Assembly (NCBI GenBank): GCA_026981635.1 | Contig: JALSIF010000048.1 | Span: forward strand, 1-5,154 | Reading direction: 5' to 3' | DNA length: 5,154 bases | Source: JALSIF01 sp026981635 [NCBI: bacterium] | Lineage (GTDB): Bacteria > 4484-113 > JALSIF01 | Shown: positions 591-5,154 of the stretch, piece by piece | Layout of the letters: each line of letters starts with the position of its first letter | Numbering within the stretch: the first letter of the stretch is position 1 | Notes under the pieces: model-generated | Database searches by the model: none | Seen by the model: only the letters and a program-made list of their open reading frames with translations | What the model was told of the DNA's origin: nothing | Position numbers and translations under genes: made by a program

Positions 591-2696
591 TCAGTTTTCC
601 AACCGTCCCCCACCGGTGGGGGAGAGCTGTTGGTGTCCATTGGTGGGGGAGGGGCTCTCCTCCTCCCCTGACACCCGCCTACTGGCGGGCCTCTCCTCCT
701 CTCGCATCTTCTCAAAGTGGGCCGAGATGCGCTCGGGGGAGAGGGTGGGCAGGTGGATGGTGAACTCGGAGCCGTGGCCTACCCTGGAATCCACCGTGAT
801 GTAGCCACCGTGGGCCTCCACCAGATACTTGGTGATAGGAAGTCCCAGGCCGGTGCCGCGCAGGTTGCCGGCGAGCTGGTCGCCGAACTGGACAAACTCC
901 TTGAAGATCTTGTCCAACTTGTCGGGTGGGATGCCGACCCCCGAGTCGGCCACCTGAATGAGGATCTCCTCCCCCTGGCGGAAGGCCTTCACCCTCACCC
1001 AGCCCTCCGGGGTGAACTTGATGGCGTTGGAGAGCAGGTTGATCACCGCTTGGCGGATGCGAAGCTCGTCCACGTAGATGTCGGGAAGGTCTGGGTCTAT
1101 GATCACCTCCAGGCGGAGCCCCTTTTCCTGGGCGAGAGCCTTTACCACCTCAACCGCCCCCTCAATGATGGGGGCGATGGGAGTTAGGCGCTTCTCAAAC
1201 TTCATCTTGCCCGCCTCAATGCGGGAGAAGTCCAAGAGCTCGTTTACCATCTCCAGGAGGTGCATGCCGTTTCGGTAGATGGTGGCCAGGTCGCTCAGCT
1301 GCTGGGGGGTAAGGTTTCCGGTGGGGTCCTTCATGAGCAGGCGGCTGTAGCCAATGATGGAGTTTAGGGGGGTCCTCAGCTCGTGGCTCACCTTGGTGAA
1401 AAACTCGGTCTGGGCTCGGCTGGTGCGGCGCAGCCGGATGGCGTACTGTTCCAACCGCTCGTAGGCATTTTCCAGTTCTTTGGTCAGCCGCTTGAGCTTC
1501 TCCGCCGTGCGCTCGGCACGCTGCTTCTCCTCCCGGTACTGGCGGGTGCGCTCCTCCACCTTCTCGTCCAGGTGGTTGTAGAGCTCGGTGAGGCGCTGGT
1601 GCTTGACCTGGAGGCTTAGCAGCATGAAGTTGAAGGCCTCATAGAGGGTGTGCAGATCGCGGTCCTTGGGCGGGGGCAGGTCCTCCTCCAGCGCGAAGTA
1701 GCCGTGCTCGCGGATATCCTCCATGCGGCGGATCAGGCGGTAGAGGGGCCGGCTCAGGTGGCGGGCCAGGGCGAGGCCGGTGGTGAGAGTGAGGAGAATG
1801 AGTAGGCTACCCACCAGGATGAGGGAGAGGATGTGGCGTTCCATGAGGACCTGGGTGAAGGCGAAGGGGCTGGCGGTGACCACCAGCAGGGCTACCCGTC
1901 TTCCCTGGGGAGTAAACAGCTCCAGGGGGCGGGCGGTGAAGGCGTATTGGGGCTCGACTTCAGGCTTGCCGAACTGACTGCTCTTTAGCCGCTGGACCAG
2001 CTGGTCAAACTGCTCCACCACGGGCGGGGGAAGGTTTCCCGGGCTGCCCACCAGGTTTTCGCTCCTGCCATCTGAGGTGAGCAGGTGGATGTTGACCTCC
2101 TCTGAGAAGACGGGATACTGGGCCAGGTTAAAGTCCTCAAGCAGGATCAGCCTTCTGTCCCCAGGGAGGGGGCGCTGGCGAGCCAGATAGAGCCCATAGG
2201 GGGTGTAGAGCCAGCCGTTTCGCTCTCCCTGGCGGGCAAACTCACGGGCGGCGGCAGTCAGACTGGAGGTGGGAGAGAGGTCGGGATAGGTGAGGACTAG
2301 CCGATCTCCCTCCAGGAGGATCAAGCTGATCTGGCGGGGAAGTATTTCCCTGAACTGCTGTTGGAAGGCGGCCAAGTTACTGCCCCACCGTTCCGCCTGG
2401 CTCACCACCACTCCCTCAAACTGAGCCAGGTGGGTGAGGATGTCCAGCTCCCTGCGCTCCAGCTCGTTGGCGGTGAAGGCCAGCCGGTTCTCCACCGCCA
2501 GTCGGTTCTGCTTTCGTTCGGCGGTGGTGGCGAAGAGGAGGATGAGAAGGATGCCCACCGCCGGGATGAGGGCGGTGGAGATGATCAGTTTTCTGCGCAG
2601 GCCGAGGTTGAAGAGCAGGCGGTGGTACCAGTTGGAGAAAGGGACAAATAGGGGTAGTTCACCTGCCCCACGCGAAGTGGCCCCTCTGCGGTCCAC
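591..2696 (-). CDS. Membrane-bound sensor histidine kinase (HAMP, HisKA, HATPase) with an extra C-terminal tail
   Basis: This 701-residue kinase autophosphorylates on His and passes phosphate to a response regulator, most likely the next gene. Order of parts: a cytoplasmic N-terminus with basic residues; TM1 at about 37-58; an extracytoplasmic sensor region of about 225 residues (60-285) that I do not recognise, possibly Cache-like by size and position; TM2 at about 289-311; HAMP at about 310-365; a coiled coil at about 366-430; HisKA with H438 in VSHELRTPLN; and HATPase with the N box around N553/N557 (NLLSNAIKF), G1 box DSGVGIP (584-590), F box F598/F602, and G2 box GTGLGLP (614-620). The ATPase domain ends near 650; the further 51 residues are low complexity and come from repeat-rich DNA. 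The start is GTG. It is the only ATG/GTG/TTG between an upstream in-frame TAG (2841-2843) and TM1, but no Shine-Dalgarno is visible. It lies 40 bases after the WYL stop, so translation may depend on the upstream gene. Confidence 0.95.
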   Translation of the reverse strand: MDRRGATSRGAGELPLFVPFSNWYHRLLFNLGLRRKLIISTALIPAVGILLILLFATTAERKQNRLAVENRLAFTANELERRELDILTHLAQFEGVVVSQAERWGSNLAAFQQQFREILPRQISLILLEGDRLVLTYPDLSPTSSLTAAAREFARQGERNGWLYTPYGLYLARQRPLPGDRRLILLEDFNLAQYPVFSEEVNIHLLTSDGRSENLVGSPGNLPPPVVEQFDQLVQRLKSSQFGKPEVEPQYAFTARPLELFTPQGRRVALLVVTASPFAFTQVLMERHILSLILVGSLLILLTLTTGLALARHLSRPLYRLIRRMEDIREHGYFALEEDLPPPKDRDLHTLYEAFNFMLLSLQVKHQRLTELYNHLDEKVEERTRQYREEKQRAERTAEKLKRLTKELENAYERLEQYAIRLRRTSRAQTEFFTKVSHELRTPLNSIIGYSRLLMKDPTGNLTPQQLSDLATIYRNGMHLLEMVNELLDFSRIEAGKMKFEKRLTPIAPIIEGAVEVVKALAQEKGLRLEVIIDPDLPDIYVDELRIRQAVINLLSNAIKFTPEGWVRVKAFRQGEEILIQVADSGVGIPPDKLDKIFKEFVQFGDQLAGNLRGTGLGLPITKYLVEAHGGYITVDSRVGHGSEFTIHLPTLSPERISAHFEKMREEERPASRRVSGEEESPSPTNGHQQLSPTGGGRLEN
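606..623. repeat. 18-bp perfect palindrome in the 3' end of the kinase gene
   Basis: TCCCCCACCGGTGGGGGA is perfectly self-complementary. As RNA it could fold into a 7-bp GC-rich stem with a CCGG loop. It lies 13 bases before the kinase stop codon (591-593), and the response regulator starts 21 bases past that stop. No T-run follows directly on the minus strand, so it is not a classic intrinsic terminator. It could be a processing or stability element, or part of a dispersed palindromic repeat. Confidence 0.7.
615..651. repeat. Direct repeat GGTGGGGGAG, two copies 27 bases apart
   Basis: GGTGGGGGAG occurs exactly at 615-624 and again at 642-651. The first copy overlaps the right arm of the 18-bp palindrome. 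The offset of 27 bases is nine codons, so the frame is kept. Both copies are inside the segment coding for the kinase's dispensable-looking tail, which suggests that segment grew by local duplication. Confidence 0.65.
655..701. repeat. Hairpin flanked by 11-bp direct repeats in the kinase tail coding DNA
   Basis: CCCGCC (674-679) and GGCGGG (684-689) form a perfect 6-bp inverted repeat around a 4-base loop. The hairpin is flanked by exact copies of CTCTCCTCCTC at 655-665 and 691-701, 36 bases apart. A short GC hairpin between direct repeats recalls REP-like elements or a small in-frame insertion, but one copy in one window cannot prove it. Confidence 0.55.
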
Positions 2697-2722
2697 ATAA
2701 AAGTTTACCGACTTTGGGGGAT

Positions 2723-2758
2723 GGTGACCGCCTGGGTTACCGGTGACCGCGCACCGGT
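2723..2758. repeat. Cluster of GGTNACC and ACCGGT motifs at the WYL gene stop codon and kinase leader
   Basis: GGTGACCGC is repeated exactly at 2723-2731 and 2742-2750. GGTTACC lies between them (2735-2741), giving three GGTNACC sites within 26 bases. ACCGGT occurs at 2739-2744 and 2753-2758. The cluster straddles the WYL stop codon (2737-2739) and reaches to 26 bases before the kinase GTG. The kinase start lacks an evident Shine-Dalgarno, so a regulatory role (operator or RNA structure in the leader) is possible, as is chance in GC-rich DNA. Confidence 0.4.
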
Positions 2759-3852
2759 CCGGCCGAGTGGGCGTGGGGGGCAGGGCTGGTGGTGGCGGCG
2801 GTGGGTTGGTCGCTGTTGGATTTGGCGGTCGGGGAGGGCTCTACGGTGGCGTAGTCGGGCAGGATGAACTGGCGGGTGTCGTAGACCTTGCGCATGCGGC
2901 GGATGGTGCGATAGACCTTGTTTCTCAGGTGGGCGGGTTTCAGCACCCGGCAGTGTTCACCAAAGGAGAGCACCCAGCGGAGCACGTTCTCTAGTGAGGT
3001 GACCTTCAGGCGGACGATCACCGTCCCGTCGTCCTGTTCAATGATCTCCTTGGTGTGGTGGAGGTTTTCAATCCTCACCCAGTGGGAGGCGAACTTGTCA
3101 AACAGCACCTCCACGATCTGCTCGCGGGCGTTGCCCCCCAGCAGTACCGACTTCTCCTGGTGCTGTTTGAGGTCAAAGCTGGGATCGGGCTCAAAGTGCT
3201 CGCCGGTGCGCTCCACCTTCATGATGCGGTTGACCAGGAAGTCGCGGATGTCCTGCTTCTCCAGGTTGTAGCCCACCAGGTACCAGTTGCCCTTGTAGTT
3301 GAGCAGGTGGTAGGGGGCCATGTGCTTGATGGTGATCATTGCCTTCTGGCCGCTGAAGTAGTGGATGCGGATCCACTCCCGGTTGCGGATGGCGGAAAGC
3401 AGCACTGCATAGATGGTGAGGTTTACCTCCGGCTCGGGGCTGATGCGGAAGTCCAGCGTGTCAATGAGTGACTGGAGGTTTACCACCACCTCATCCTGGA
3501 GGCTGGCGGTGATCTTCTTGAAGGCCCGCTCAAGCTGGAGGTAAAAGGGGGTGGTCTCGTAGTGCTTGAGGATGTTTTCCAGCACCACGATGGAGAGCAG
3601 CTCCCCGTTGGTGAGGGAGACGGCGGGCAGCTCAAAGGTCTCGGTGTAGTAGTAGCCCCCCCGCTCCCGGTCTAGCTTCACCGGGGCGCCGAACTCGTCG
3701 CGGAGCAGTGCCAGGTCCTTGTAGGCGGTGGCCTGGCTCACCTCAAACTGGTCCATGTGGTCCTGGATGGAGGGATAGCGCCCCGCCGCAATCTGCTGGT
3801 GGAGCCAAATCATCCGACGAATCTGCTCAGCGGTGTAGACCTCTTGTGCCAT
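2737..3852 (-). CDS. WYL-domain transcriptional regulator (HTH, WYL and WCX-like C-terminal region)
   Basis: This 371-residue protein has the layout of one-component WYL regulators, which bind DNA through an N-terminal winged helix and sense a ligand through the WYL domain. Residues about 7-70 form the HTH, with the likely recognition helix in VSQATAYKDLALLRDEFG (38-55) and a wing around GGYYYT (65-70). A helical linker spans about 80-135. The WYL domain covers about 145-215 and contains the literal W190-Y191-L192 in KGNWYLVGYN, then R203-D204-F205 and the NRI motif (208-210). A WCX-like region (about 245-325) has the usual repeated beta/alpha pattern and ends in an Arg-rich helix. Residues 338-371 are a Pro/Ser/Thr/Ala/His-rich tail, probably disordered and unusual for the family. 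The ATG start is backed by AAGGA 4 bases upstream. The kinase follows 40 bases downstream, so the three genes probably share a message. Relatives include PafB/PafC (DNA damage) and regulators of phage-defence loci; neither role can be assigned here. Confidence 0.93.
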   Translation of the reverse strand: MAQEVYTAEQIRRMIWLHQQIAAGRYPSIQDHMDQFEVSQATAYKDLALLRDEFGAPVKLDRERGGYYYTETFELPAVSLTNGELLSIVVLENILKHYETTPFYLQLERAFKKITASLQDEVVVNLQSLIDTLDFRISPEPEVNLTIYAVLLSAIRNREWIRIHYFSGQKAMITIKHMAPYHLLNYKGNWYLVGYNLEKQDIRDFLVNRIMKVERTGEHFEPDPSFDLKQHQEKSVLLGGNAREQIVEVLFDKFASHWVRIENLHHTKEIIEQDDGTVIVRLKVTSLENVLRWVLSFGEHCRVLKPAHLRNKVYRTIRRMRKVYDTRQFILPDYATVEPSPTAKSNSDQPTAATTSPAPHAHSAGPVRGHR

Positions 3853-3856
3853 CTTG

Positions 3857-3861
3857 TCCTT
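3857..3861 (-). promoter_or_regulatory. Ribosome binding site of the WYL regulator
   Basis: AAGGA on the minus strand lies 4 bases before the ATG at 3850-3852. The spacing is slightly short but acceptable, and it decides the start of the regulator. Confidence 0.7.
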
Positions 3862-3878
3862 GCCTGCCCTGTGGTCAA

Positions 3879-3897
3879 ATAGGTTTTCCCAGCCTAT
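3879..3897. promoter_or_regulatory. Short inverted repeat, candidate operator upstream of the WYL gene
   Basis: ATAGG (3879-3883) and CCTAT (3893-3897) are perfect inverted arms around a 9-base spacer, 27 bases before the WYL start. Just beyond it, TCGAGCT is repeated directly at 3897-3903 and 3911-3917. Regulators of this type often control themselves, so this could be a binding site. Five-base arms are weak evidence and may be chance. Confidence 0.3.
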
Positions 3898-3928
3898 CGA
3901 GCTCTCTTCCTCGAGCTGGACCTCGTCT

Positions 3929-3995
3929 GGTCTGGTCCGGATTTTACAAGGTTCCGGTTAAGCCTGACCTGCCACCGGTCTGGGCTAGATTTTAC
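3929..3995. repeat. Two copies of GGTCTGGNNNNGATTTTAC in the WYL promoter region
   Basis: On the plus strand, GGTCTGG-TCCG-GATTTTAC (3929-3947) and GGTCTGG-GCTA-GATTTTAC (3977-3995) share 15 fixed bases in two blocks with only the central 4 bases different. The copies are 48 bases apart in the same orientation, in non-coding DNA. On the minus strand each reads GTAAAATC-N4-CCAGACC. A fixed-variable-fixed pattern in a promoter region fits two binding sites for one regulator, or a duplicated promoter segment, since each copy carries a TAAAAT box. Confidence 0.7.
3961..3986. terminator. Stem-loop between the repeat protein and the WYL gene, weak terminator candidate
   Basis: AGCC (3961-3964) pairs with GGCT (3983-3986), and GACC (3966-3969) pairs with GGTC (3977-3980). 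A small internal loop separates the two helices and the apical loop is TGCCACC. It lies downstream of the repeat protein in its reading direction, where a terminator would be expected, but no T-run follows on the minus strand. It would equally lie in the 5' leader of the WYL transcript if the promoter at 3989-4017 is used. Confidence 0.3.
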
Positions 3996-4017
3996 TCCCT
4001 TTGGCTTGATCTGTCCC
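3989..4017 (-). promoter_or_regulatory. Candidate sigma-70-type promoter for the WYL-kinase-response regulator operon
   Basis: On the minus strand, GGGACA (4017-4012; 4 of 6 match TTGACA) is followed after a 17-base spacer by TAAAAT (3994-3989; 5 of 6 match TATAAT). Transcription would start near 3982, leaving a leader of about 130 bases before the WYL ATG. A second TAAAAT at 3946-3941 has no convincing -35 at 16-18 bases. The -10 of this promoter lies inside the right-hand copy of the direct repeat, so a protein bound there would block it. Confidence 0.4.
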
Positions 4018-4032
4018 CTTCTACCGATCAAG
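4005..4032. terminator. 7-bp inverted repeat spanning the stop codon of the repeat protein
   Basis: CTTGATC (4005-4011) and GATCAAG (4026-4032) are perfect inverted arms with a 14-base loop that contains the TAG stop (4021-4023). In RNA it would form a 3'-end hairpin of the repeat-protein message. No T-run follows, so it is at best a factor-dependent or stabilising hairpin. It also overlaps the candidate -35 region, so it may have a double use. Confidence 0.35.
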
Positions 4033-5154
4033 TCCCCGTCCTATTTCAGGCCGGGGATGGGTTAGTTTCTCCCGCCGGTTCTGGTCCCACTTGCGACCGT
4101 TTCCCAGGTGCTCAAAGCCTTCTCCGGTGGGGTAGGTGTCCACCCCGGAGAGGTCAAGGAATACCCCCACCGCGGGCATAAACCGCCTCACTCCGCCCCG
4201 GCTCCAGCGGTTGGCCTCACCGAAGTTGGTGCCCGGCTTTGCCTGGTAGGTGTCGTTTCCCGCCTCCTCCCAGAAGATGCCGATGCCCATGGCGTTGGAG
4301 GCACCCAGAGACAGGTTGGGTGCGCGGTAGGTGTCATCGCCCCCCGCCTCGTAGAGCAGGCCGAGGGAAAGGTCGTGGCCCGCTCCCAAGGCCATGTTCA
4401 TGGGGGCGGTGTAGGAGTCGTCTCCCGCTCCGTCGTAGAGGGCTCCGACGGCGAAGTGGGCGGCTGCCCCCTGGACGTACCACTGGCCCAGGTAGCGGTC
4501 ATTTCCCGCCTTGTCGTAGAGCAGGCCCACCCCGTACCAGTAGCCGGCCCCCTGGCCAAACACCCCCACCAGGTAGCTATCGTCGCCTGCGCCGTCAATC
4601 AGGATGCCCACTCCGCCGGCCAGGGAGTGGCCGATCAGGTAGTCGGAGCGTTTGCCGTAGCCGAACCCCTGGCAGAGGCTGGCGTTGTGCTCCCGGGACT
4701 GGGGGCTGGGGTAGCGGATCTCGTCGTCGCGGCACTCGTAGGAGTCGTCTCCCTGCCGGTCGTAGAGCAGCCCGCTTCCTCCCACATAGCCGAAGCCCTG
4801 GGCATAGGTGAAGGCCTCGTAGCGATCATTGCCCGAAAGGTCGGCCAGGACGCCAAAGCCGAAGAAGCCAGCCCCCTGGGTCACCCGGTCACCCATGTAG
4901 GTGTCATTGCCGCTGTAGTCCACCACCACCGCGGTGCCGAAGCAGCTTGCCCCTCGGCCGGGGAAGTGATCCCCGTCCAGGTAGCGGTCGTCGCCCCCGT
5001 GGTCAATCAGGATGGTGGTGCCGGGAATCAGGCTCAGGTAGTCTCCGCGGTAGATCTCGCTTCGCTCGTCCAGGGAGAGGTGGACCTGGACGAAGAAGCG
5101 GTCCGAGTCAATGGCGGGGGAGGGTGGGGGATTGAGGCGGTCCAGGGAGCCCTC
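4021..5154 (-). CDS. GDDxY-repeat protein of unknown function, N-terminus outside the window
   Basis: The frame is open from the right edge to a TAG at 4021-4023, giving 377 visible residues. The GTG at 4927-4929 is internal, because the same repeat pattern continues upstream of it. Residues 1-47 are a non-repeat stretch (DSDRFFVQVHLSLDE). Residues 48-341 hold ten imperfect units, mostly 26-28 long, with consensus (L/I)-x-(Y/I)-D-x-x-G-(D/N)-D-x-Y and, in the first six, an aromatic/Gly-rich second half usually carrying QG-x-G. Unit 4 has a long insertion between its two halves with C141 and C161; unit 9 has another; unit 10 is degraded (GVDTY). Residues 342-377 are a basic tail. I do not recognise a named family. 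The D-x-x-G-D-D-x-Y turn and regular period suggest a beta-solenoid or beta-roll, perhaps binding metal as RTX repeats do, but this is inference. No signal peptide, membrane segment or catalytic motif can be seen in this part. Confidence 0.9.
   Translation of the reverse strand, partial: EGSLDRLNPPPSPAIDSDRFFVQVHLSLDERSEIYRGDYLSLIPGTTILIDHGGDDRYLDGDHFPGRGASCFGTAVVVDYSGNDTYMGDRVTQGAGFFGFGVLADLSGNDRYEAFTYAQGFGYVGGSGLLYDRQGDDSYECRDDEIRYPSPQSREHNASLCQGFGYGKRSDYLIGHSLAGGVGILIDGAGDDSYLVGVFGQGAGYWYGVGLLYDKAGNDRYLGQWYVQGAAAHFAVGALYDGAGDDSYTAPMNMALGAGHDLSLGLLYEAGGDDTYRAPNLSLGASNAMGIGIFWEEAGNDTYQAKPGTNFGEANRWSRGGVRRFMPAVGVFLDLSGVDTYPTGEGFEHLGNGRKWDQNRREKLTHPRPEIGRGLDR
4132..5013 (-). repeat. Ten tandem protein repeats of the GDDxY type
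   Basis: The units begin at visible residues 48, 76, 103, 129, 184, 211, 238, 266, 293 and 331. Their signature turns are GGDDRY, SGNDTY, SGNDRY, QGDDSY, AGDDSY, AGNDRY, AGDDSY, GGDDTY, AGNDTY and SGVDTY. Protein similarity is much higher than DNA similarity: the Ser in the same motif position is AGC in unit 5 but TCC in units 4 and 7. The array is therefore old and kept by selection on the protein, not a recent DNA duplication. The second-half QG is lost from unit 7 onward, so the C-terminal units are the more divergent ones. Confidence 0.9.

Follow-up and report, generated by a model that had tools for sequence, protein, structure and literature searches.

The window, the whole stretch of 5,154 nucleotides that was analysed, contains part of a gene for a repeat array whose family is widespread and unrecognised in the libraries searched. 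The explanation that we prefer, and to which we give about an even chance, is that the array is a Ca2+-stabilised right-handed beta-solenoid carrying one specific ligand-binding or catalytic site. The fragment would form the C-terminal portion of a protein that is probably exported, with about twelve coils and one repeat per coil. The D-x-x-G-x-D-x-Y motif would form a tight turn in each coil, Ca2+ would be bound jointly by Asp residues of neighbouring turns on one edge, in the manner of RTX and MpAFP helices, and a Gln-Gly-x-Gly turn elsewhere on the coil would stack Gln residues. This scaffold is proposed to present a single patch over the units G135 to G244, formed by Q162, R169, Y205, W206, Y226, H233, H260 and D261, which most likely binds or cleaves a ligand; an extracellular glycan is the best guess. 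We infer the fold, its handedness, the Ca2+ binding and the role of the patch as a site, the fold from models of middling confidence.

The window is a whole contig, and the reading frame of the array gene is still open at position 5154, which leaves a fragment without the N terminus of the array protein. The missing N-terminal part was searched for in the source genome and no match was found, a result of little weight. In the 377-residue open fragment the motif G-x-D-x-Y occurs at residues 54, 82, 108, 135, 190, 217, 244, 272, 299 and 337, giving spacings of 28, 26, 27, 55, 27, 27, 28, 27 and 38. The spacing of 55 corresponds to a unit with an insertion and that of 38 to a long unit. Based upon the spacing in whole relatives, two further degenerate units may precede residue 54, at about residues 16-20 and 28-35. 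The features of the array gene are listed below.

4021-5154, minus strand: 3' part of the array gene, 377 codons and a stop, with the 5' end lost at the contig end
5005-5154, minus strand: residues 1-50, a poorly conserved lead-in with two possible degenerate units, suggested by the spacing in relatives
4921-5004, minus strand: unit at G54, residues 51-78
4843-4920, minus strand: unit at G82, residues 79-104
4762-4842, minus strand: unit at G108, residues 105-131
4597-4761, minus strand: unit at G135 with an insertion, residues 132-186, which holds Q162, G163 and R169
4516-4596, minus strand: unit at G190, residues 187-213, which holds Q201, Y205 and W206
4435-4515, minus strand: unit at G217, residues 214-240, which holds Y226 and H233
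4351-4434, minus strand: unit at G244, residues 241-268, which holds H260 and D261
4270-4350, minus strand: unit at G272, residues 269-295
4156-4269, minus strand: unit at G299, long, residues 296-333
4024-4155, minus strand: unit at G337 and C-terminal tail, residues 334-377
4372-4671, minus strand: non-repeated conserved patch of Q162, R169, Q201, Y205, W206, Y226, H233, H260 and D261

The array described in the original prediction is present on the minus strand: ten units were found, nine with G-(N/D)-D-x-Y, whereas 10,000 shuffles of the same composition gave 0.05 such motifs on average and never more than 2. Its account of ten units of 26-28 residues with a nearly invariant turn holds for seven of the nine spacings and for the seven of ten units that have the strict form D-x-x-G-(N/D)-D-x-Y; it does not extend to the spacings of 55 and 38, to units 8 and 9, which start with E, or to unit 10, which reads G-V-D. 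The further statement that most early units have a QG-x-G half was roughly fair, with four strict Q-G-x-G copies at residues 93, 119, 162 and 201.

A family profile was built from the window protein together with four named relatives. At a cut-off of E 1e-10 it had matches in 73 of 385 genomes, namely all ten of the window's class (its own genome included) and 63 of the 375 others. Each of the ten genomes of this class had two or three scored array matches. The window protein alone found matches in 19 of 60 genomes at E 0.001. The named relatives lie on four MAG contigs, from a Chthonomonas sp. and a member of Fimbriimonadaceae (both Armatimonadota) and from two Planctomycetota. This spread of a conserved motif in effect refutes the reading of the array as a chance feature of a G+C-rich frame with no gene product, to which we give a negligible probability. 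That reading draws on a long open frame on the opposite strand (4108-5154), and is also opposed by the codon-position bias of the minus frame, which has 83.6% G+C at codon position 3 and 46.8% at position 2. The opposite-strand frame is best read as a by-product of the G+C-rich coding frame.

No array relative was found in viral, plasmid or phage collections. Across 36 array proteins, 18 of them with match positions, no Pfam model scored above cut-off on the array itself. The 36 proteins match 21 Pfam families at E 0.01, and in the 18 with positions the matches lie outside the array except for one kind, Peptidase_M10_C, which falls faintly within the array in the relatives L048 (E 0.0041) and L044 (E 0.011), both below cut-off. 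At the level of sequence, this match is the sole link to RTX proteins seen. Hits on the window to PFO_beta_C (0.15) and PorV (0.33), from a Pfam search with E up to 10, were far below cut-off and were rejected, and a weak SBBP match on L004 (E 3.1) was set aside. NCBIfam gave no match for the window protein and two relatives, the three proteins on which the absence from the array itself rests; the NCBIfam names returned for the 36 array proteins, which come without positions, are mostly of partner-domain kinds. Profile searches of the PDB with whole and unit profiles found no sequence relative of the array and no relevant match to any metal-binding protein. Weak matches with no bearing on the array were discarded, to ribosomal protein L35/uL29, ChlI and a viral polymerase for the whole profile and to proteasome beta-5, a tRNA endonuclease and cutinase for the unit profile. 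The original prediction had named as evidence against it a confident hit to some characterised family whose fold is different, and none occurred. No publication on the array family was found in the open-access literature searched, to which this statement is confined, and the available part of a paper on unknown solenoid families (PMC10584680) has nothing on it. Naming the family would annotate many exported proteins.

The arrays vary in detail and little in overall size. Among 35 array open reading frames (ORFs), 34 have 9-13 motifs over 270-381 residues, and one, L051, has six motifs. Spacings of 25-29 make up 252 of the 348 in these ORFs; 33 of the ORFs have three or more consecutive spacings of 26-28, and 30 have an interval of 45-57. 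The length is not strictly fixed, because 10 of the 35 contain an interval longer than 57 residues (79-134). Conservation was counted over 55 unique array segments, each with six or more motifs, taken from loci L001-L085, with duplicates merged and the others left out; a separate 25-row comparison of relatives omitted L003, a second view of the protein of L002. Unit by unit, the Gly of the turn is kept in 52-55 of the 55 arrays, Asp at G-3 in 42-55 and Tyr at G+4 in 48-54, and Asp at G+2 in 52-55 for every one of the ten units. Five of the eight regular units share a Gln at phase 11-12 (Q93, Q119, Q201, Q228 and position 256, where the window protein itself has Leu), with Gln in 35-52 of 55; this column may be an amide ladder.

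Structures were predicted with AlphaFold for the window protein (pLDDT 62.7, pTM 0.69) and for the L026 protein (pLDDT 64.9, pTM 0.72), in both cases from five sequences, and the two models have a similar pattern of strands. All ten units of the window model have a strand whose last residue is G-3, the first Asp of the motif, and in six of the ten a short strand of three residues follows the motif. Confidence is among the lowest in the insertion with R169, where pLDDT falls below 50 at residues 145-153 and 167-177. Foldseek gave no significant match, the best E being 0.66 for the window model and 2.4 for the L026 model, and nothing significant among viral predicted structures (best E 0.09). 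VIA-align was run over Foldseek's own candidates, where for repeats a Z under about 13 can mean only a common arrangement. For the window model the top row was 2odl, the HMW1 secretion domain (Z 16.5, rmsd 3.2, 240 residues aligned), followed by 3p4g, MpAFP region IV (Z 13.7, rmsd 3.2, 210 aligned). For the L026 model 3p4g was the top row (Z 14.0, rmsd 3.1, 252 aligned). Other matches included antigen 43 (7ko9, Z 10.7) and a Caldicellulosiruptor adhesin, and the classical RTX beta-roll lipase MIS38 reached only Z 3.4-3.6 over about 100 residues. HMW1 and antigen 43 are right-handed beta-helices that share the overall fold of the models in this comparison; no sequence relation between them and the array was found, and we know of no Ca2+ ladder in either helix. 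The models are read as right-handed because LpxD, GlmU and YdcK, which we take to be left-handed helices, align only at rmsd 11.5-13.3 A, whereas the right-handed helices near the top mostly align at 3-5.5 A. The VIA-align results are taken to support a right-handed beta-solenoid for the array and nothing beyond that.

The sequence of the turn suggests how such a solenoid might be stabilised. The RTX consensus GGXG(X/D)DXUX and its Ca2+ geometry are described in the available part of PMC2174480. The array turn agrees with the RTX nonapeptides (PF00353 HemolysinCabind) in Gly4, Asp6, a large hydrophobic residue at position 8, where Tyr is allowed, and frequent Asn or Asp at position 5; both have an acidic turn and a probably extracellular location. 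The array differs in having Asp-x rather than Gly-Gly at positions 1-2 and one turn per about 27 residues rather than one per 9, and so is not a tandem of GGxGxDxUx nonapeptides. PF00353 is absent from the 21 families matched by the 36 array proteins at E 0.01. A PF00353 search of eight genomes gave nothing over cut-off and four weak matches, none at the listed array places; in a control the model was over cut-off in 2 of 14 named genomes. By sequence model and by period the array is thus no member of the RTX family, though it may work like one.

A second comparison is offered by MpAFP region IV, which has one GND turn per 19-21-residue repeat, needs Ca2+ to fold, and has the consensus xGTGNDxuxuGGxuxGxux with an ice face of Thr and Asx (PMC3492233, in the part available). 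Its structure 3p4g is a Ca2+-bound right-handed beta-helix of thirteen 19-residue RTX-like repeats. The array would share with it a G-N-D-x-u turn once per coil, has a similar repeat number and a recurring structural match to it, and differs in its longer repeat (26-28 residues), the Asp at G-3, the Tyr, the Gln-Gly turn and the non-repeated patch. Because the turn agrees with the RTX consensus and the MpAFP helix, with its single GND turn per repeat, needs Ca2+, the array most likely binds Ca2+ between neighbouring turns along one edge. This would show that RTX-like acidic turns can fit a longer, 27-residue repeat. The proposal of a metal-binding beta-solenoid is supported by the strand ends and by the matches to right-handed beta-helices, within models of middling confidence, and by the unit-by-unit conservation of the Asp residues. 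The Ca2+ solenoid as a whole is plausible and moderately supported, and the Asp residues of successive turns would stack in it.

An ice-binding protein like MpAFP region IV would also account for the position of MpAFP near the top for both models and for the dominance of Asn or Asp at G+1 (417 of 547 cells). The residue at G-1 is most often Gly (148), Ala (143) or Ser (86) in 549 cells and Thr is not among the eight commonest, whereas the MpAFP ice face combines Thr with Asx. The array has no such Thr at G-1, and on these counts the ice-binding reading, which we regard as very improbable, was set aside.

Further evidence for the preferred reading, a solenoid with one specific site, is a set of polar and aromatic residues that are not repeated from unit to unit and are about as conserved as the repeat motif. 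Among the 55 arrays, Q162 is kept in all 55, D261 in 54, R169 and H233 in 53 each, Y205 and Y226 in 51 each, Q201 in 49, W206 in 47 and H260 in 44. W206, H233 and H260 share phase G+16 in three successive units and would be stacked one above another if each unit forms one coil; at the same phase four other regular units are weaker (Gly 35, Phe 27, Thr 21 and Ala 24 of 55). Such a pattern would be expected of a site to which neighbouring coils contribute. The conserved patch and the small variation in unit number and span make a single specific site on a size-limited scaffold seem more likely than the originally proposed ladder of equal sites that bind a repetitive ligand. Given the limited length variation and the conserved patch, what was a vague "repeat protein" now poses questions of ligand and Ca2+ that can be tested.

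The patch can be lost, because two of the 55 sequences, L021 and L056, have neither R169 nor H233; L021 also lacks D261 and sits on a very long branch (5.4). The L056 protein (3737-7033) and the L021/L051 versions keep the Asp-Tyr turns without R169 and H233, and are possibly site-dead.

A more specific form of the preferred reading is that the array is a beta-helix enzyme, for example a lyase or hydrolase of polysaccharides, whose catalytic residues would be found among R169, Y226, H233, H260 and D261. We consider this possible and clearly less probable than the general form. Successive units hold a conserved Arg, Tyr, His and Asp, each at a set position, which is reminiscent of parallel beta-helix lyases, and the Gln column could be compared with the Asn ladder of PL6. 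Phage tailspikes, which are glycan-cleaving beta-helices, occur among the structural matches at Z 9.5-12.2 (6e1r, 12.2; 5w5p, 10.9; P22, 9.5-9.7). Tailspikes are, however, common beta-helix matches, and those found here share 5-10% identity; Z is only 4.9 for isopullulanase and 8.2 for Jun a 1, an allergen resembling pectate lyase, and no Pfam enzyme family lies on the array above cut-off. PL6 enzymes have Lys, Arg and His at the catalytic site and an Asn ladder of 10 steps that runs through 10 of the 12 turns, and they usually use Ca2+ (PMC6879350, in the part available). The array resembles these lyases in its predicted coil number, in a recurring amide column and in conserved Arg and His in neighbouring units, and differs in having no sequence match and in its Gln instead of Asn. 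No lyase family is among the 21 matched by the 36 array proteins at E 0.01. The patch may work in a way comparable to a PL6 site, and binding without catalysis fits equally. No relationship of the array to MpAFP or to the lyases is shown. It is conceivable, though we hold it tentatively, that the arrays form a new family, frequent in bacteria that have been little studied, whose members are extracellular beta-helix enzymes or specific receptors and combine an RTX-like Ca2+ edge and a scaffold of about 12 coils with a single Arg-Tyr-His-Asp site.

Whole relatives are about 600-750 residues long, with a signal-like N terminus, then a helical part and then the array. In one model (L026) the helical part has about 230 residues, the first 110 or so at low confidence. 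Signal-like N termini were recognised in 33 of 35 relatives by a crude hydrophobicity and cleavage rule applied to 35 ORFs, which L026 failed on cleavage and L038 on hydrophobicity. The array protein is probably secreted or exported, the N terminus of the window protein lying outside the fragment. By eye, L043, L045, L047, L053 and L056 have lipoprotein-like signals (a Cys after a hydrophobic stretch), and these versions may be membrane-anchored.

The partner domains bear on another explanation, that the array is a purely structural Ca2+-stabilised stalk or adhesin scaffold holding neighbouring domains, with the patch as a cap, packing surface or docking face. The 36 scanned proteins combine the array with HEAT (5), Big_7 (4), BamB-like beta-propellers (3) and PDZ (2), and in one protein each with PKD, cohesin, dockerin and a beta-helix. 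The HEAT, Big_7, beta-propeller, PDZ and PKD domains, which are of a stalk or scaffold kind, together with the adhesin and secretion-domain helices among the matches (2odl, antigen 43 and the Caldicellulosiruptor adhesin), are what a stalk might show. Stalks are expected to vary in unit number and span, which in the array vary little, and the patch Arg, His and Asp are kept in 53-54 of 55 sequences despite the differing partner domains, more than a spacer should need. We regard the stalk as somewhat unlikely. The Big_7 members form one group on the tree (99/95), and the HEAT, PQQ and PDZ members each require two changes on the best tree; no repeated domain swapping is claimed, because each of these may have had a single origin.

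In the L038 protein (1763-5107, plus strand) the roughly 750 residues ahead of the array have no Pfam match at E 0.1. The genome of the window encodes another array protein, L027 (1855-3915, minus strand), on a different contig. It has 686 residues, its N terminus is signal-like, its array contains an interval of 112 residues, and it groups with the HEAT-bearing members on the tree.

Gene neighbourhoods in 15 stretches gave no functional clue. Neighbours were shared only within the window's class (L028-L030, and one family in L030 and L035) or between L023 and L026, the two Armatimonadota loci. The one exception was a group made up of antisense frames of the array itself; the overlap rule had kept these frames and dropped two array ORFs, that of L024 and the first in L035. 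Directly downstream of the array gene in the window, on the same strand, lies a WYL/WCX-domain transcriptional regulator with an N-terminal HTH-like part (2737-3852, minus strand; Pfam WCX 6e-18, WYL 3.7e-16, and HTH_11 1.5e-4, below cut-off); no link between it and the array was shown. By eye, the minus strand also encodes a putative membrane sensor histidine kinase (591-2696) and then a putative response regulator (1-570).
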